Source of the DNA: an uncultured Verrucomicrobiota bacterium
GTDB lineage: Bacteria; Verrucomicrobiota; Verrucomicrobiia; Limisphaerales; UBA9464
Direction: 5' to 3'
Length of the DNA: 64,000 nucleotides
Assembly: GCA_903922605.1 (NCBI GenBank)
Contig: CAIXUG010000072.1
Coordinates: 1-64,000 of the forward strand
Program-made: the position numbers and the translations under genes
Notes under the pieces: model-generated
The model's input: the letters and a program-made list of their open reading frames with translations, nothing else
The model's database searches: none
What the model was told of the DNA's origin: nothing
Part shown: positions 27,265 through 37,244 of the stretch, one piece after another
How the letters are laid out: the number at the start of each line of letters is the position of its first letter
Numbering within the stretch: the first letter of the stretch is position 1

Positions 27265-28917
27265 ATGACTCCGGTGACCGGCCAGCTCGCGCTCGTTCTG
27301 CATGCCCACCTGCCATTTGTACGGCATCCGGAGCACTCCAGCTTTTACGAGGAGACGTGGCTGTTTGAGGCCATCACGGAATGCTACCTGCCGCTGTTGC
27401 GAATGATGGACGGTTGGACGCGGGACGGTCTGCCGTGGCGGCTGTCGCTAACACTCACACCCACGCTGTGCGTGATGCTCGACGATCCGCTGCTGCAATC
27501 CCGTTACGCGCAGCATCTCGAATCGCTGCTCGGATTGGCGGAGAAGGAATTGGAGCGCACGCATTTCGATCCGGCGAGGCAAGCCCTGGTCCGCTTCTAT
27601 CTGGAACGGCTCTTGGAAGCGCGGAGCGGGGAGCGGGGAGCGCGGAATGAAGAAACGGGGAGTGTGTTGGGGCGCCTCGCGGAGCATCAGCGGAATGGCA
27701 ATCTGGAAATCCTGACCTGCGCGGCGACGCATGCGCTGTTGCCGTTGCTGACGGGCGAACCCTCATCCATCCGTGCACAGCTAGGGGTGGCCGTCATGGA
27801 TTACCAAAGGCGCTTTGGCCGGCCGGCGTCGGGCATCTGGCTGCCTGAGTGCGCGTGGTCGGCGGACGTGGGGCCTTACCTGCGCGGGGCCGGACTGAGG
27901 TGGTTCATCACCGAGACGCATGCGTTGTTACGGGCGAAGCCGCAGCCGCGCGCCGCAACCTTTGCTCCGGTGATCACGCCGGACGGGCTCGCCGCCTTTG
28001 CCCGCGATCCGGCCAGTGCGCGGCAGGTATGGAGCCGGCGCGAGGGCTATCCGGGCGATGCGCGGTATCGCGAATTTCACCGCGATCTGGCGCATGAGGC
28101 GGAGTGGACCTACGTGCAGCCGCATCTGGCCACCGATCAGCGTACGTTCACGGGTTTCAAGTATCACCGCGTCACCGGGGCCAACGTGCCGGCGGAGGCC
28201 AAGGAGCTTTACGACCGCACGGCGGCACTGTCCGCCGTCGCGGAGCATGCCGCCCATTTTGTGGAGCAACGGGCGCTCCAATGCACGACGGCCACGCCAC
28301 TGCTCAGGCGTCCGCCGCTGCTCGTGGCGCCGTATGACGCGGAGCTGTTCGGCCACTGGTGGTTTGAAGGGCCGGAATTTCTCGACGCCGTGGTCCGCCG
28401 AGTCGCCAGCGGGATGGATGGCCTCACGCTGACCACGCCGGGCGAATACCTCCGCCAGTTTCCGACGCATCAGCAGGCCATTCCGGCTGCGTCATCGTGG
28501 GGGGAGGGAGGCCATCTGGGTGTGTGGCTTGACGAATCCAACGCGTGGATGCAGCCGCCCTTGCGCGCCGCCGCTGCCCGGATGACAGCGCTGGCCGACC
28601 ATTTCGCCAGCGATGTAACGGATGATCTGATTGAGCGAGGTCTCAGGCAGGCCGGTCGGGAACTGCTGCTGGCGCAGGCGAGCGACTGGCCCTTCCTGGT
28701 GAAGATGGGCACGGCGGGGGACTATCCGGCACGCCGCTTCCGCGAGCACGTCGAAAACTTCAACCGGCTGGCGGAGGCGCTGGAAAGCTCGGTGGCGGAA
28801 TCACTACGCTCCGCTTTGGAACCGTTGGAGGCGAGGAACAACCTGTTCGCCGACCTGGATTGGCGCTGGTGGTGCGGGCGTAAGCCGGCTCACGGCGTGT
28901 CCGAGCGCACGCGGTAA
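27265..28917 (+). CDS. GH57 glycoside hydrolase (1,4-alpha-glucan branching enzyme type)
   Basis: A 550-residue GH57 enzyme from the ATG at 27265, which opens MTPVTGQLALVLHAHLPFVRHPE; upstream frame to 27166 is rejected. The catalytic nucleophile is expected at E195 in GIWLPECAW, and the acid/base at D358 in YDAELFGHWW. The HAHLPFVRHP block near the N-terminus and a C-terminal helical domain fit GH57 branching enzymes acting on glycogen. A short in-frame stretch at residues 121-133 (RSGERGARNEE) is encoded by GCGGGGAGC-type repeats and may be an insertion. It converges with the next gene, overlapping by 28 bp. Confidence 0.9.
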   Translation: MTPVTGQLALVLHAHLPFVRHPEHSSFYEETWLFEAITECYLPLLRMMDGWTRDGLPWRLSLTLTPTLCVMLDDPLLQSRYAQHLESLLGLAEKELERTHFDPARQALVRFYLERLLEARSGERGARNEETGSVLGRLAEHQRNGNLEILTCAATHALLPLLTGEPSSIRAQLGVAVMDYQRRFGRPASGIWLPECAWSADVGPYLRGAGLRWFITETHALLRAKPQPRAATFAPVITPDGLAAFARDPASARQVWSRREGYPGDARYREFHRDLAHEAEWTYVQPHLATDQRTFTGFKYHRVTGANVPAEAKELYDRTAALSAVAEHAAHFVEQRALQCTTATPLLRRPPLLVAPYDAELFGHWWFEGPEFLDAVVRRVASGMDGLTLTTPGEYLRQFPTHQQAIPAASSWGEGGHLGVWLDESNAWMQPPLRAAAARMTALADHFASDVTDDLIERGLRQAGRELLLAQASDWPFLVKMGTAGDYPARRFREHVENFNRLAEALESSVAESLRSALEPLEARNNLFADLDWRWWCGRKPAHGVSERTR

Positions 28918-31406
28918 AATTGCAGGCCATCACCCAGTGGAATCTGAAGTTCCAGGTCGCGTGGCTGGGCGGGGTAGGTCGGCTCAGTGCCAGGAACGTC
29001 CAGTCGCAGCCAGCTCGGAGACGCAAGATCATTGGCCGCTTCCAATTGGATCGCCTGATTGGTCGGCTGTCCGATATGCAGGCTCAACTGGCCGTTGTGC
29101 GCCTCGGCGCGGACCGTGGCCGGGTCGTTGATAAAAGGATCACCCAGCTGATAAATCCAACGCTGGATCAGCTGGGCCCCCGCGTCATCCGCGACATTGG
29201 AAGCGATGGGCGGCATCTGCCCCGGGCCGCGCATCGACTGGCGCTGAAACAGCACCGAATGGTCGGGGGATCCACCGACCAGCACGCGGTTGGCGGTGTC
29301 GCCGCGCGTGTCGTTTAGCCGTCCGTTGATGAGTCCGGCAAGGTCTGTCTTGGTTTGCAATCGCGCGTCGAAGAACCCACCGCCGGGCCCACCGGGCCGA
29401 TGGCAGAGGCTGCAGTTCGCCGCGAGGTACGAGCGCACGCGCCACTCCACGCTGACCGATTCGTCGTCGGTCGCCGCGAGCGACGCCAGCGGGACGAGAT
29501 TGGTGGGCGGAGCGGCGAAATATCCGGCCTCAGCCAGCGCCGCGATCTGGTTTGTGGTGATACCACCAGGGTAGGTGAAGTTGCCGTTCAACTGGGCGGT
29601 GTTGAAGCCGAGCGTTAGGCCGGCGGACGCATTATGGCAGGAGAGGCATTCCGCCCGGCTGGGGTAGTGCCAGACCTGCGTCTGCGTGACCCCATTGATG
29701 ATGCGGGTGATGGTTTCGTTCGTGCCTTCCTCGGGCACGAGCACGGCATTGGTCAGGGAATCCCAACGGTAGGTGATGCCGTAGACGCCATTCTTGTTGC
29801 GGACGATAAACCGGGTCTCCAGCCGGCGCGACGACTCGGGGACGCCGTTGGTCAGCTCCAGGTCAAAATGCTTCACCCACAACGTGCCATTCGGCGAAGA
29901 CCAGGTGTCGTTGGTGGCGAAACCGAGCTGCTGGGCCGGATCCGGCACACAGAACCAGCGCTGCTTTTTGGCGCCGTCAGACCAGAACGGCAGATTTACG
30001 GAATAGGCCACCAAGCCAGCGGCCGGAGTGAGCGAAGCGGTATCCGCGAACGCACCGGTATCGGCAAGCGTCGGCGGGAGGGGAGAGCCCGTGAAGGTCG
30101 GATTATAGTCCAGCCGCTGGATCAGACCGCTGCTCACGTTGATGGCCAGGATGTCCCCGTTGCGAGGGTCCGTGCCGAAAGCCGCGATGCCCGTCTGGCC
30201 GAGCAGGCGGGTGATCTGGGGAGCGGCAGATTCCTGCCGGCGCAACGACCAGACGTTGCCGCTCACATAATCTGCGTAGACATATGCGCCAAAAAGCTGC
30301 GCCAACCGGGCTCCGCGATACACCAGCCCGCCGATCAGCGAATTGCCCTTGTCGGTGCCGGAACCGTGCGCGTAGGACTGGACGGGTGGGACGTAATTGA
30401 ATTGCGGATCGGTCAGAAAATTGGCCGGCATGCCGCTCTTCGGGCCGGCAATGTTACCCTCCCGGAAGTCCCAGCCGTGGTTCGCGCCCTTGCGCGTCAC
30501 GAAGATGCTTTCCCACCGGTCCTGACCGACATCACCGATCCAGAGATCGCCGTTGGCCGCGTCGAACGACCAGCGCCACGGGTTGCGCAACCCGACCGCA
30601 AAGTATTCGGTGCGCACTTTGGCGGCGACCACGGGCTGGCCGTTGAAGCTGGTCGCACCGACGAACGGGTTGTCGGCAGGAATGCGGTAATTGCCCACCA
30701 CGGCCGGGTGCGGATTGGGCGCGAGTGAACCTTCACGGTTGTCCACGTCGAGGCGCAGCAGGCCGGCGAACAGGTCGGCATCGATCTTCTGCGCGTTGCC
30801 GAACTGGTCGTTGGCGCCACCGCCGTCGCCGAGCGACACGTAAAGATAACCATCCGGCCCGAAATGCACGTCGCCGGCGTTATGGTTCGAGGCCGGATCA
30901 GCCTGCTGGAAGAGAATCACCTCCGAGGCGGCATCGGCGAGGTTGGGATTGGCGGCGGAGACGTGGAATTCGCTGAGGCGGTCATGCAACTGATTGGCAT
31001 GGCCGGTCGTGGAGGCGGTAACGGTGCGATAGAGGAAGATGCGCCCGTTGGTCGCGTAGCCGGGATGAAAGGCGAGTCCCAGCAGGCCTTCCTCACCGCC
31101 ATATGCGGTCTTGGCCGTGAGATCGAGGAAGACCGCCTTCTGCGGGTTTCTCAGGTCAGGGAGGACGGTGATGCGCCCGGGCTGTTCGACCACAAACAGG
31201 CGATTGGTTTCGCCGGGGGGAGTTGCGATGGTCACGGGGGCAGAAAAGGTGAGCCCGGGGAAGGCATTCCCCAACTGATAGCCGAAAGAGCCGGGCACGT
31301 CCGGCAGCTTCAAAGTGCGGTTGGCCACCCGCTCCAACGGGCCAGCCACCGCCGGCGTCACGGCAGCCAAGGCGGCGAGCAGCAGGAGGAGCAGGGCGCG
31401 ACGCAT
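28890..31406 (-). CDS. Secreted glucose/sorbosone-dehydrogenase-like propeller with two haem-binding sites
   Basis: A 838-residue exported protein (signal MRRALLLLLLAALAAVTPAVA). Residues about 40-430 form a PQQ-dependent sugar dehydrogenase-like propeller (RLFVVEQPGRI, GEEGLLGLAFHP, SNHNAGDVHFGPDGYLYVSLGDGG, VGLRNPWRWSFD). From about 480 comes a haem module with CLSCH near residue 585 and CSLCH near 665, also found in the 1317-aa protein at 48127. The C-terminus contains an LQFYRVRSD tail. Likely oxidises an aldose or related substrate outside the cytoplasm and passes electrons through c-type haems. Its tail overlaps the GH57 gene on the opposite strand. Confidence 0.88.
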   Translation of the reverse strand: MRRALLLLLLAALAAVTPAVAGPLERVANRTLKLPDVPGSFGYQLGNAFPGLTFSAPVTIATPPGETNRLFVVEQPGRITVLPDLRNPQKAVFLDLTAKTAYGGEEGLLGLAFHPGYATNGRIFLYRTVTASTTGHANQLHDRLSEFHVSAANPNLADAASEVILFQQADPASNHNAGDVHFGPDGYLYVSLGDGGGANDQFGNAQKIDADLFAGLLRLDVDNREGSLAPNPHPAVVGNYRIPADNPFVGATSFNGQPVVAAKVRTEYFAVGLRNPWRWSFDAANGDLWIGDVGQDRWESIFVTRKGANHGWDFREGNIAGPKSGMPANFLTDPQFNYVPPVQSYAHGSGTDKGNSLIGGLVYRGARLAQLFGAYVYADYVSGNVWSLRRQESAAPQITRLLGQTGIAAFGTDPRNGDILAINVSSGLIQRLDYNPTFTGSPLPPTLADTGAFADTASLTPAAGLVAYSVNLPFWSDGAKKQRWFCVPDPAQQLGFATNDTWSSPNGTLWVKHFDLELTNGVPESSRRLETRFIVRNKNGVYGITYRWDSLTNAVLVPEEGTNETITRIINGVTQTQVWHYPSRAECLSCHNASAGLTLGFNTAQLNGNFTYPGGITTNQIAALAEAGYFAAPPTNLVPLASLAATDDESVSVEWRVRSYLAANCSLCHRPGGPGGGFFDARLQTKTDLAGLINGRLNDTRGDTANRVLVGGSPDHSVLFQRQSMRGPGQMPPIASNVADDAGAQLIQRWIYQLGDPFINDPATVRAEAHNGQLSLHIGQPTNQAIQLEAANDLASPSWLRLDVPGTEPTYPAQPRDLELQIPLGDGLQFYRVRSDTP

Positions 31407-31473: not shown

Positions 31474-32895
31474 TCAGGGCTTGGCGTGTTCTTTGGCGTC
31501 TGCCACCATTTTGGCGAACACTTCCTGGCCGCCGAAATAGCCGTAATTGACGGGTCCGAGCAGCTTGAGCTGCGCGTTCAGGTCGTCCCAGGCCTGGCAC
31601 TTGTAGGCATACCAGGCGTAGTTGTGCCGCCACCCGATGGCGGCGGGTTCGCGGCGAAGAAACTCCTCATAGGCGGCGCGGAGGTCGGGCCAGACTTCCG
31701 GCCGCAGCCAGTAGCGCTGACGCGTGGCATCATCCTTCCCCGAGCGGGCGGCAAGAAAGATATGGGCGTCCACGATGGTCAGCGGCACGGTGCCGTTCCA
31801 GTTGGTGTTGTGAATGCACTCGCGGCCGAAGGTGAGCATCTCCTCCGCCGAACCGAGCCACATGGGCTCGAGATAGTGGAGCTTGTACATGCAGGCGTCG
31901 TAATTGTTCGGGGCGGCCCGCATGGCCCGACCGAACCACCGCTCCATCTCCGGACGGTCCCGGTCAAGCCCGAGGCAGACCTCGATCATTTCGGCCGGGG
32001 CCCGGGTGTCGTGCTCGTCCTTGTTCCAGGCGGATACCAGGGATTCTGCCGCCACCTTCATGCGCTCTTGGAACAGCTTCCAGTTTTCCGGCGAGACCTC
32101 ATTGGCATAGCCGTTGCCACGGGCCCGCCAGGCTTGGTGCAGGTAGAACTTACCACGCAGCAGGTCGTATCCGGCGGCGTTCGGCCAATGTTCCTTGAGG
32201 GGGGGACCGAGCCGCCCCCAGAACTCCGGGTATTCCTCCTGGTTTTGCTGCGCCACGTCCATGAGCTGCTGCGCCATGGCGTAGATCTCGGCTTCGGGAG
32301 TGGTCGGGTCGTGGATGGCCTTGATCAGACTTTCCAAGGCAGCGTAGCGCCGGAAGTGGACCTGCTCCATCGCTTCCTCCGGCGGATCTTTTGCCGGCAG
32401 CACGGCTTTCATGGCCTCAGCCGCGCGGATGGACGCGTAAAATTTCAAGTAGGCGGAATACCCTGAGCCGTCCATTTGCTGGGCGACCGACTGGAAGACC
32501 TTGGCGGTCGCAGCATCGGACTGCTTCGCGTCTCCCACCCGGTACCGCACGGCGAGATATTTGACCAGCGGGTCGGTGCAGCCCTGATCCAGGGCCGACT
32601 GGGCCAAGGTGGCGATCTTGCCCAGCCAGTCGGCGGGAACTCCGGCATCGCCGGCGCGGGCCGCAGCCATCAGGCTCAGTGCGGACTTGGCGGGCTCGTC
32701 CCATTTCGGGGAACGCTGGCCGGCGCGCTCATAGGCCCCGACCAGGTTGGTCATGAACCAGCGCTGCCGGTCGGTTTTGGCCGGTTCCTGTCGGGGCGGT
32801 GTGGTAGTGAGATTCCCGGACGCCGGCGCATCGGATTCGCCGGAAACGGCCAGGCTGCCAAGCAGAAGCAGTCCGAGCAGGAGCAGAAATTTCAC
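31474..32895 (-). CDS. Tandem paralogue 1, DUF4034-like exported protein (no lipobox Cys)
   Basis: One of three consecutive paralogues, each exactly 473 codons when started at the equivalent GTG (here 32895, opening VKFLLLLGLLLLGSLAVSGES). Unlike its two neighbours, the cysteine of the lipobox LAVSC is replaced by glycine (GGC for TGC), so it is probably a secreted or signal-anchored protein rather than a lipoprotein. The helical body, with blocks such as AWRARGNGYANEVSPE, EMERWFGRAM, CMYKLHYLEPMWLGS and NTNWNGTVPL, resembles proteins with DUF4034; this family naming is from memory. Function unknown. It is the third gene in transcription order. Confidence 0.82.
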   Translation of the reverse strand: MKFLLLLGLLLLGSLAVSGESDAPASGNLTTTPPRQEPAKTDRQRWFMTNLVGAYERAGQRSPKWDEPAKSALSLMAAARAGDAGVPADWLGKIATLAQSALDQGCTDPLVKYLAVRYRVGDAKQSDAATAKVFQSVAQQMDGSGYSAYLKFYASIRAAEAMKAVLPAKDPPEEAMEQVHFRRYAALESLIKAIHDPTTPEAEIYAMAQQLMDVAQQNQEEYPEFWGRLGPPLKEHWPNAAGYDLLRGKFYLHQAWRARGNGYANEVSPENWKLFQERMKVAAESLVSAWNKDEHDTRAPAEMIEVCLGLDRDRPEMERWFGRAMRAAPNNYDACMYKLHYLEPMWLGSAEEMLTFGRECIHNTNWNGTVPLTIVDAHIFLAARSGKDDATRQRYWLRPEVWPDLRAAYEEFLRREPAAIGWRHNYAWYAYKCQAWDDLNAQLKLLGPVNYGYFGGQEVFAKMVADAKEHAKP

Positions 32896-32970
32896 CGTGT
32901 GATGCCGACGCGAAAGCGGTCGGGTTTCAATCACAAAAGCCCGGGTCGGAAACGGGTTATGGCTCTGGGC

Positions 32971-34392
32971 TCAGGGTTTTGCATGCTCCCGGGCATCTGC
33001 GAGCATCTTGGCGAACGCTTCCTGGCCGCCGAATTCGTCGTAATTTACGCGGCCCAGCAGCCTGAGCTGTGCATTCAGGTCATCCCACGCCGCACATTTG
33101 TAGGCGAATCGGACATAAGTTTGGCGCCGGATTCCATCGTCGGGACTGCGACGGAAGAACTCCTCGAAGGCCGCCCGGATGTCAGGCCAGACGCCCGGGC
33201 GCCGCCAGTACATGGACCGCGCGGCTTCGGTCTCCTGAAAGGACGCGAAAAAATCATGCGCGTCGACCAGCACCAGGGGCACGGTGCCACTCCAATTGGT
33301 GTTGCCGACGCATTCGTGCCCGAACGCCAGCATGGCCTCCGGCGAGCCAAACCACATGGGTTCGAGATACCGGAGCTTTCCCGTGCAAGCCGCGTGATTG
33401 TTGGGTGCGGCGAGCATGGCCCGCTGGAACCACCTCTCCATCTCGGGCCGCTCCTTGCCCAGGCCGGTACAGACTTCCAACATCAGCGTGGCGGGCTGCG
33501 GGTCATTGCTGTCCCGATCCCAGGCGGACTGGAGCGCCTTCTCGGCAAGCTTGAGATGTTCCTCAAAGAGTCGTCCGCCTTCGGCCGTAACCTGGTTGGC
33601 GTAGCCGCCACCGCGCGCTTTCCAGGCCGCTTTGATCTCGGACCACCCGGTAAGGAGCGCGACCAGATCCGATTTGGGCCGGGTCTCCCGCAAGGCGCCC
33701 TCGATTCTCTCCCAGTATCCGGGCGGGATTTGGTCGTCGCTGTCCACCAGAGTCAGCACGTCGGTGCACATTTCATACAACTCTTGTGGCGGCGTGGTCC
33801 TGTCCTGGAAGGCGTCGAAGAGCTGGTTGAGGCTGCTCTGGATCATCGCGTGGATGTTGAACAGCTGAGATTGGGTCTGCTGGTCCGGGGCGGGCAGGGC
33901 CGCCCTCATCGTCTCGGCCGTCCGCAGGGCGGCATAGAGTTTTAGCCGGGGCGGATAGTCTGAGTCGGCCAGGCTCTGGACGATCTCACTCAATGCGCCG
34001 GCTTCGGACGGGCTGACCTTCTCCAGGTGGACAATGCCGTACCGCAGGGCTGCGTAACGGACGTAAGGATCGGCACAGCCCTTGTCCACGGCCGACTTCA
34101 TTAGAGAAGCGATCTCCTGTCGCCAGTCAGCGGGAACGTCAGGGCGGTTCGCGCCGGCCGAGGCGATGAGATTAAAGGCTACCTTCACGTCCCCATCCCA
34201 CTGTGGGTCGTGCTTGCCGATGCGCTCATAGGCCCCGACCGTGTTCTTCACATACCATTGGTAGGCGTCATCCTTGGCCCGGTCGCTCTGCTGACGCGCC
34301 GTGACGAGCTCGGCGGGCGTCGGATCGCCGCGCTTGCAGGAAACGGCGAGACCGCCGACCAAAAGCAGGCCGAGCAGGGGAAGCAACTTCAC
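32971..34392 (-). CDS. Tandem paralogue 2, DUF4034-like lipoprotein
   Basis: Middle copy of the triplet. From the GTG at 34392 it encodes 473 residues opening VKLLPLLGLLLVGGLAVSCKRGD, with a lipobox LAVSC, so it should be lipid-anchored. It shares with its neighbours the blocks WKARGGGYANQVT, EMERWFQRAMLAAPNNHAAC, YLEPMWFGSPEAM and GTVPLVLVDAHDF. A longer frame to 34455 is open, but the sequence upstream of the GTG is conserved between copies because the 5' flank was duplicated too. Function unknown. Copies 2 and 3 keep the cysteine that copy 1 has lost. Confidence 0.83.
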   Translation of the reverse strand: MKLLPLLGLLLVGGLAVSCKRGDPTPAELVTARQQSDRAKDDAYQWYVKNTVGAYERIGKHDPQWDGDVKVAFNLIASAGANRPDVPADWRQEIASLMKSAVDKGCADPYVRYAALRYGIVHLEKVSPSEAGALSEIVQSLADSDYPPRLKLYAALRTAETMRAALPAPDQQTQSQLFNIHAMIQSSLNQLFDAFQDRTTPPQELYEMCTDVLTLVDSDDQIPPGYWERIEGALRETRPKSDLVALLTGWSEIKAAWKARGGGYANQVTAEGGRLFEEHLKLAEKALQSAWDRDSNDPQPATLMLEVCTGLGKERPEMERWFQRAMLAAPNNHAACTGKLRYLEPMWFGSPEAMLAFGHECVGNTNWSGTVPLVLVDAHDFFASFQETEAARSMYWRRPGVWPDIRAAFEEFFRRSPDDGIRRQTYVRFAYKCAAWDDLNAQLRLLGRVNYDEFGGQEAFAKMLADAREHAKP

Positions 34393-34599
34393 CGGCTGAT
34401 GGCGACGTGAAAACGGTTTGAATTCAACTGCAAAAGGCCGGGCCGGCCGCGTCATATCTTTTGAGAACCGGCATTCGATGCCAGCCTAACATGTCTGGGC
34501 TGATAACCGTTTCGCCCCGAGTGCGGCGGAAATGAGCCGGCTGACCAGCAGCAATTGCGGGCAATGCCATCGAGGGCCAACGATTCCCGCAAAATCAGC

Positions 34600-36021
34600 T
34601 TAGGGTTTCGCGTGATTTTTGGCCTCCGCAACCATCCGGTCGAATGCCGCCCGTCCACCGAAAAAATTGTAGTTCACCGGCCCCAGCTGCTGGAGCTGCG
34701 CATTCAGGTCATCCCACGCCTGGCACTTGTAGGCATGCAGCGTGTAGTTCGGGCGCCACCCGACGGCGTCGGGTTCCTTGCGGAAGAACGCCTCATAGGC
34801 CGCCCGCAGGTCGGGCCAGACTTCCGGTTGCAGCCAGTAGGCCTGACGCGAGGCGCTGTCGTTCCGCCCGTAGGCGCTGAGAAAACCATGGGCCTCCGTG
34901 AGCACGAGCGGCACCCTTCCGCTCCAGTTGGTGTTGCTCACGCATTCGTGGCCAAAGGCGAGCATTTCCTCCGACGACCCAAACCAGATGGGCTTGAGAT
35001 AATGGAGCTTGGCCTGGCAGGCGTCGTAGTTGTCGGGGGCGGTGAGCATCGCGCGCTGAAACCACAGCTCCATCTCGGCACGGTCTTTGCCGAGGCCGGT
35101 GCAGACCTTGATCATCTCGGTGGCGATCCGGGTGTCGGTGTTGTCCTTCTTCCAGCCGGACTGCAAGGCCTGATCGGCCAGCTTCAACCGCTCGTCAAAC
35201 AGGCGGGCGCCTTCGGGGGTCACCTTGTCGGCAAAACCGCTGCCGCGCGCCTGCCAGGCATAGGTCCGGTAATACCAGCCGCGCAGCAGGTCGGCCTGGG
35301 CGGATTTCGGCCACTGGTCCCGGAGGGTGGCGTCCAGTCCGGACCAGTACTCCGGAAATTCCCGGTCATTTAGCCGCACCATTTCCATGAGGGCCGATGA
35401 CATCACATAGATCTCCGATTCGGGAGTCGTCGGGTCGTGGAGGGCCTGCAGGAGGTTTTGGAGCGACTGGCGGCGCAACTCGTGCACCAGGGCCATCTCG
35501 GTCTGGGGTGGGTTGTTTTCGGGCAACGTGGCTTTCAGGGACTCGGCGGCGCGCATGAGCGCATAGAAATTCAGGTAAGGGGAGTACCCGCTCCGGCCCA
35601 TGTCCGCGGCGATGTCCTGGAAGGCCTTGGCCGTTTCGGCATCCGACCGTTTCATGTCCCCCACCCGGTAGCGCAGGGCGACATAGCGCACGAGCGGGTC
35701 GGTGCAGCCATGATCCACGGCGGACTGGGCCAGTGAGGAGACATCGCGCGACCACTCGGTGGTGAGTTTCGCTTCGCCCGACCGCCCCGCAGCCATGAGG
35801 TTCAGCGCGGTTTTCGCTGGCCCGTCCCATTGCGGATCATGCTGGCCGACGCGTTCGTAGGCTCCGACAAGGTTGGTCGTGAACCACCGGTGCGCGCTGT
35901 CTTTGGCGTGGTCCTGCTGACGGTGGGCGGCGGCCAGGCGTGCCGGCGTTGGTTCGCTGCGCTTGCAGGAAACAGCCAGGCCGCCCCAGAGGAGCAGAAC
36001 TAAGACGGGGAGCAACTTCAC
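34600..36021 (-). CDS. Tandem paralogue 3, DUF4034-like lipoprotein
   Basis: First of the three copies to be transcribed. It starts at the GTG at 36021 (no earlier start in frame), giving 473 residues opening VKLLPVLVLLLWGGLAVSCKRSE with a lipobox. The sequence is helical, with AWQARGSGFADKVTPEG, EMELWFQRAML and YLKPIWFGSSEEM. The three genes are separated by about 75 and 207 bp. The family is found mostly in PVC bacteria as expanded paralogues; no role is known. It is followed downstream in the genome (to the right) by the flagellar cluster, with which no link is evident. Confidence 0.83.
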   Translation of the reverse strand: MKLLPVLVLLLWGGLAVSCKRSEPTPARLAAAHRQQDHAKDSAHRWFTTNLVGAYERVGQHDPQWDGPAKTALNLMAAGRSGEAKLTTEWSRDVSSLAQSAVDHGCTDPLVRYVALRYRVGDMKRSDAETAKAFQDIAADMGRSGYSPYLNFYALMRAAESLKATLPENNPPQTEMALVHELRRQSLQNLLQALHDPTTPESEIYVMSSALMEMVRLNDREFPEYWSGLDATLRDQWPKSAQADLLRGWYYRTYAWQARGSGFADKVTPEGARLFDERLKLADQALQSGWKKDNTDTRIATEMIKVCTGLGKDRAEMELWFQRAMLTAPDNYDACQAKLHYLKPIWFGSSEEMLAFGHECVSNTNWSGRVPLVLTEAHGFLSAYGRNDSASRQAYWLQPEVWPDLRAAYEAFFRKEPDAVGWRPNYTLHAYKCQAWDDLNAQLQQLGPVNYNFFGGRAAFDRMVAEAKNHAKP

Positions 36022-36173
36022 CGCCCAATGGCGACGGGAAAACCGTCCGGTTTCAACTGTAGATATCAGTGAATCAGTAACCGGTAATCAGTGAACGAAA
36101 CACTGCGGAGTCAGCGGCGGTCGGGATGCCGTGCTGTTTCATTCATAATTCATCCTTCAACTTTCATCATTTC

Positions 36174-36488
36174 TCAATACACGCAGTCGAGGTCGATGAC
36201 CTGGCCGCAGGCGCAGTGGATGCGGATGCGGGTGACCTTGCCACCATCATGCTGGAGGGTGACGGTCGGCTGGGCGGTCTCGCCGGCGGGTGCGCTGCAA
36301 TGGAGCCCGCTCGTCGCTGACACTGGCATCGGCAATGAGGCTGGTGGCACTGCCACCAACGAGGGGATGAAGGATGGTTTTTCCGAGGCGGAAGCCAGGG
36401 CGTTGAGGCGTCCGTTGCCGGTGGCGGCGACAGCGCCGGTCGGTGAACCGCCGCCGAAGAGAGGGATGAAGGGCTCGGCCATGCTCAT
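36174..36488 (-). CDS. Small protein at the 3' end of the flagellar cluster
   Basis: A 104-residue protein starting 6 bp after motB in the same direction, so very probably in its operon. The N-terminal 75 residues are rich in Pro, Ser and Ala (low complexity); the C-terminus VTRIRIHCACGQVIDLDCVY carries a CxC plus one further cysteine, perhaps a small metal site. I recognise no family. Its position suggests a motility-related accessory role, but that is inference from order alone. Confidence 0.65.
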   Translation of the reverse strand: MSMAEPFIPLFGGGSPTGAVAATGNGRLNALASASEKPSFIPSLVAVPPASLPMPVSATSGLHCSAPAGETAQPTVTLQHDGGKVTRIRIHCACGQVIDLDCVY

Positions 36489-36494
36489 GATTTG

Positions 36495-37244
36495 TTATTT
36501 GTTTTTTGCTGTATCTTTGTCGTTTTTGACCTTCACGACGACACTCACGCGCCGGTTGCTTCCGTCGGTCGCCTGCCGGTCCGGCATGGGCTGGGTGTCG
36601 GCGTAGCCTGCCACCTTGCGGATTTGGGCTTCCGCGATGCCATGCTCGAGCAGCTTGCGACGGGCGGTGTTGGCGAAATCGGAACTCAGTTCCCAGTTGC
36701 CGTAGTCCTCGCTCTTGGGCGTGTGGCCGACTTCGGTATGGCCCTCCAGCTCGATCAGGAAGGAGCTGGAATAGCGCGAAAGTTGCCACGCGAGCGTGGT
36801 GAAGACCCATTGGCCGTATTCGGTAAAGGATGCCGAGTCGGATTGGAAGATGGGCTTGTTGGCGCGGTTGAACACCGTGATGCGGATGCCCTCGGGCATA
36901 TAGTCGAGCTTTACGGCCTCCTCGTCCGGGGTTTCCGGGTTGTGGGGCAGGGTCTTGAGGAAATCGGCGGCCAGCTTGCGCAACAGCTTCAGTTCCAATG
37001 CAGCCGGGGAATCAAAATTGCCGCGCTCCGATTTGGGCGACTGCACATCCTTGGTCGGGATGATGCCGGAGGCGCCCGGGATGGGCGAGGCGAACGGATG
37101 GTTGAAGGAGCGTTGGACCGCCTCCTTGATCTTCTCGTCCTGCGAGGTGAGCCAGAGTACGAGGAAGAGCGCCATCATGGCCGTGACAAAATCGGCATAG
37201 GCCACCTTCCAGGCGCCACCGTGATGTCCGTGTTTTTTGGCCAT
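36495..37244 (-). CDS. motB: Flagellar motor stator protein MotB
   Basis: Stator subunit anchoring the ion-conducting complex to peptidoglycan. It opens with a basic segment and the single membrane helix AYADFVTAMMALFLVLWL, where D18 is the proton- or ion-carrying aspartate. The C-terminal OmpA-like domain (residues about 105-240) contains LIELEGHTEVGHT and NRRVSVVV. Length 249, typical. It follows motA after 27 bp. Sequence alone does not tell whether protons or sodium drive it. Confidence 0.94.
   Translation of the reverse strand: MAKKHGHHGGAWKVAYADFVTAMMALFLVLWLTSQDEKIKEAVQRSFNHPFASPIPGASGIIPTKDVQSPKSERGNFDSPAALELKLLRKLAADFLKTLPHNPETPDEEAVKLDYMPEGIRITVFNRANKPIFQSDSASFTEYGQWVFTTLAWQLSRYSSSFLIELEGHTEVGHTPKSEDYGNWELSSDFANTARRKLLEHGIAEAQIRKVAGYADTQPMPDRQATDGSNRRVSVVVKVKNDKDTAKNK

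Follow-up and report, generated by a model that had tools for sequence, protein, structure and literature searches.

Three paralogous genes stand in tandem on the minus strand of the window, the 64,000-nucleotide stretch of a contig from an uncultured Verrucomicrobiota bacterium analysed here, and one of them lacks the lipobox cysteine that the other two carry; the question that this locus raises is whether one copy of an exported protein has changed its place in the cell after duplication and, if so, how unusual such a change is in its family. The genes lie in the order c3 (34600..36021), c2 (32971..34392) and c1 (31474..32895), all three reading frames being present and intact, and each runs for 473 codons from an equivalent GTG start (36021, 34392 and 32895, respectively); read from the first possible start, the frames of c1 and c2 lengthen to 486 and 494 amino acids owing to in-frame upstream GTG/ATG codons. 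The proteins of c1 and c3 are 58% identical and align without a gap, while c2, at 49% identity to c1 and 52% to c3, arrives at the same length because its single insertion and its single deletion offset each other. The length of exactly 473 codons given in a preliminary description of this DNA thus holds for these three genes, counted from the equivalent GTG, and not as a rule of the family, whose length is nearly constant: three of the four paralogues at the same place in a congeneric metagenome-assembled genome (G004), counted likewise from the GTG, have 477 (d0), 474 (d1) and 475 (d2) codons. Recent gene conversion as the source of the likeness between c1 and c3 was considered and rejected, identity being moderate throughout and a near-identical tract absent.

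In c2 and c3, a hydrophobic stretch precedes the motif LAVSC, which constitutes a signal peptide with a lipobox ending in cysteine, and both are predicted lipoproteins that can be lipidated because the genome encodes both Lgt and LspA. In c1, codon 19 (32839..32841, minus strand) reads GGC for glycine where c2 and c3 read TGC for cysteine, as had been reported, and SLAVSG stands in place of the lipobox. The first cysteine of c1 is residue 106, with none sooner in the longer reading of 486 amino acids either, and the protein thus offers no other cysteine for a lipoprotein. The lipobox pattern is matched by c2, c3 and all four paralogues of the congener, so that the array relatives retain the cysteine and, as first described, c1 alone of the three lacks a lipoprotein prediction; both the start codons and the lipoboxes were called by eye and by pattern rather than by a trained predictor. 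The hydrophobic stretch of c1 is as strong as those of c2 and c3 and is followed by small residues that, by eye (LAVSG-ES), would suit cleavage by signal peptidase I at A-V-S|G or V-S-G|E. The stretch past residue 19 of c1 likewise departs from that of its paralogues, CKR.[DE]PTPA having become GESDAPASG; this stretch has drifted in d0 as well, in which the cysteine is retained.

The absence of a known function noted in the preliminary description is borne out, although the family can be named. Against the curated cut-off of 21.3 bits for DUF4034 (Pfam PF13226), c3 scores above (24.9) and c2 (20.0) and c1 (17.9) below; the profile is only partly covered, the matches of d1 and d2 are weak as well, and a genome-wide family search with an E value of 0.01 returned no DUF4034 match. 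By these scores, the array proteins appear as a distant branch related to DUF4034, a family for which a literature search found no paper. For the array proteins, there was neither an NCBIfam match nor a clear sequence relative in the PDB; searches with the Pfam TPR families gave no match above cut-off, with none at all for c1 to c3 and only sub-threshold TPR_19 matches for relatives. An AlphaFold2 model built from the seven array proteins has a mean pLDDT of 85 and a pTM of 0.79; it comprises about twenty helices, with nothing but helix from residue 37 onwards and good confidence from about residue 39. Its top PDB matches by Foldseek and VIA-align are TPR superhelices (IFIT, OGT, LGN/Pins, Tom70), with Z scores of 12–16 over about 300 residues, a range to be read against the tool's own note that helical repeats can score about Z 13 from shared arrangement alone. 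The model thus supports a TPR-like solenoid of stacked helix pairs wound into a superhelix, and not kinship to the matched proteins, from which the array proteins differ in being bacterial and exported, in sharing only 5–14% identity with them and in having no TPR sequence-family match above cut-off. TPR-like solenoids usually bind proteins or peptides; hence we infer a putative role as protein-binding scaffold, the structural matches giving no function by themselves. In larger relatives of about 820 amino acids (L018, L019, L020 and L021), the C-terminal half of the DUF4034-related family follows a GYF_2 domain and a membrane helix; the domain of the family therefore occurs with a protein anchor as well.

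The reading preferred here, to which we give a probability of about 70%, is that exported TPR-like, DUF4034-related proteins form a local birth-and-death array here, in which the usual member is lipidated and c1 has lost its lipobox and is exported without lipid. The usual member would leave the cytoplasm through Sec, receive its lipid from Lgt and be processed by LspA at the lipobox cysteine; its helical solenoid would then sit on a membrane, in all likelihood on the periplasmic side, and act as a scaffold that binds proteins. The lipobox of c1 was most likely lost through a single base change from TGC to GGC; with the signal sequence kept, the protein would still reach the periplasm, where cleavage would set it free or the signal sequence, if left uncleaved, would hold it. 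The proposed move from membrane lipoprotein to soluble secreted protein is hence upheld as to the missing lipobox and qualified as to the rest: in a diderm bacterium the periplasm is the default and likelier destination, so that “secreted” finds no support if taken to mean release from the cell, and an uncleaved signal anchor is possible. The latter is suggested by MetQ, a binding protein that occurs in lipidated and in secreted form: by prediction its family contains members of both kinds, and the Cys20Ala mutant yielded protein with and without cleavage (PMC8416018). The likeness is that of one family whose members are predicted lipoproteins or signal-peptidase-I substrates, with one cysteine deciding (PMC8416018); the difference is that MetQ is an unrelated protein whose case was tested at the bench, whereas the array is known from sequence.

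The change in c1 had been presented as a neat case, a view that does not survive comparison with the order, where the cysteine is missing in other lineages too. A survey of the N-termini of 36 homologues (the seven array proteins and 29 others, the long membrane protein of G196 being excluded) found the lipobox present in 26, clearly absent in seven (c1, G007, G117, G189, G305, G312 and G064c) and ambiguous in three (G001, G185 and G209). A maximum-likelihood tree from which the 40 N-terminal columns were left out requires at least six changes of the lipobox among the 33 scored homologues; when G209 is scored as lacking and G185 as having the cysteine, the count becomes seven, at least four of them forced by well-supported branches. 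Genome G064 alone has two homologues with a lipobox and one without, so the same contrast between paralogues occurs outside this array. Because its relatives have switched the lipobox cysteine several times, the change in c1 is ordinary rather than special: a credible loss and one of several recurrent anchor switches. With at least six switches of the lipid anchor in a single family of a single order, the DUF4034-related proteins make a small, countable example that is usable for asking what constrains anchoring rather than one that reveals a new mechanism.

The direction of the change, from lipoprotein to unanchored protein, was implied from the start and is probable, with good though incomplete assurance: loss in c1 is favoured because the cysteine is present in the other six proteins of the array and in most of the family. 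Gain in the others also fits the tree, in which c1 branches off first within the array (86/68) and the nearest outside group includes a congeneric homologue, that of G007, without the cysteine; one early loss followed by a regain costs as many changes as two losses. It is accordingly conceivable, though rather unlikely, that the glycine is the old state, the ancestor shared with the congeneric homologues of G007 and G001 having already lacked the cysteine and the other array copies having regained the lipobox. The placement of c1 on which this depends is weak, as AU tests reject neither its grouping with c3/d3 nor that with d0 (p 0.34 in each case), and the branch of G007 and G001 is long (1.3 changes per column); besides the prevalence of the cysteine in the family, c1 itself retains the LAVS of a lipobox. 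The homologue of G007 adjoins a ribosomal-protein gene at another genomic place and was rejected as an orthologue of the array.

A step beyond loss in c1 would be that selection keeps anchored and unanchored forms of the same scaffold, with a free periplasmic copy competing with the anchored ones or shuttling between them; we regard this as improbable, if somewhat less so than the decay of c1 considered below. Were it true, members of this family would have specialised repeatedly by switching their anchor.

Comparison with the congener indicates how unstable the array is. Its surroundings are collinear in the two genomes at 86–94% nucleotide identity: downstream, a gene for a protein with a GSDH domain and a c-type cytochrome (28890..31406, minus strand) and, upstream, a motB-like flagellar gene (36495..37244, minus strand) followed by motA, fliA and flhF-like genes, the flagellar genes being named by reading the sequence, keep the same order around the array site in both. 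Despite such close neighbours, c1 and c2 have no counterpart in G004 above 58% identity; for c1, a search of the genus likewise gave nothing above 58%, and no orthologue turned up in the other genomes examined. The array therefore turns over much faster than its neighbours, through differential loss or replacement. The sole clear orthologue pair across the two congeners is c3 and d3, which correspond one to one at 95% amino acid identity (dN 0.023, dS 0.136), a sign of purifying selection on this pair during most of their separate history. In G004, d3 (L031:9921-11342, minus strand), otherwise of 473 codons, is interrupted by a premature TAG at codon 436 that would cost it the last 38 residues, through either real damage or an assembly error. 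Between motB and the array lies a frame of 104 amino acids (36174-36488, minus strand), for which G004 has conserved DNA that differs by 6 bp in frame; it has no NCBIfam match and may be a small gene belonging to the flagellar cluster.

Such turnover, with different copies in the two congeners and the counterpart of c3 interrupted in one of them, could suggest that the array is losing copies and that c1 is decaying, its missing lipobox being the earliest damage to be seen. This is quite unlikely: c1 has kept its full length, shows a pairwise dN/dS of about 0.41 with c3 (0.23–0.48 for other paralogue pairs) and retains nearly all invariant columns, with 10 changes at columns invariant in relatives against 11 in c2, 12 in d1 and 21 in d0. 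Because its frame is intact and it has no excess of changes at invariant columns, c1 does not look like a pseudogene on these counts. Slightly less likely still is an error of base calling or assembly by which TGC was mistaken for GGC, c1 being a lipoprotein like its paralogues, since, for all that a single base decides, that the source is a metagenome-assembled genome in 90 contigs and that a confirming orthologue is lacking, c1 also departs from the paralogue pattern past residue 19, which fits an older change, even if Cys-bearing d0 has drifted there too.

The view that a 5' flank of about 45 bp was duplicated together with the genes is supported. The flanks of c1 (32896..32940), c2 (34393..34437) and c3 (36022..36066; identical in the congener), all on the minus strand, share 32/45, 28/45 and 31/45 positions from -45 to -1 in pairwise comparison (62–71%), values equalled in none of 20000 shuffles; the flank is likewise present at d2 and d3 and absent at d0 and d1. 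Two other accounts of the flank were rejected: as a coding N-terminal extension (SRRH, Tat-like), it has no ATG, GTG or TTG in the frame of c3 and d3 and its differences are not biased to third positions; as a genome-wide repeat, it was located by genome search in the array only. A scan of the flank for sigma-70 promoters found none. In each flank, a TTG-initiated frame of 12 codons (32892-32930, 34389-34427 and 36018-36056, minus strand; e.g., LKPDRFRVGITR) terminates at a TGA overlapping the GTG start; these frames may be due to chance, because GTGAA always provides the TGA. Upstream of the flank of c3 and adjoining it, the 30-bp stretch TTCACTGATTACCGGTTACTGATTCACTGA (36066-36095, minus strand) has many similar short stretches in other parts of the genome, its best matches on other contigs reaching 93–94% over about 30 bp, and is by these matches a dispersed intergenic repeat. 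The 75 bp preceding c3 (36022-36096) are identical to positions 11343-11417 of L031 in G004, although c3 itself differs there at 9% of its third codon positions, and this stretch may be under constraint.
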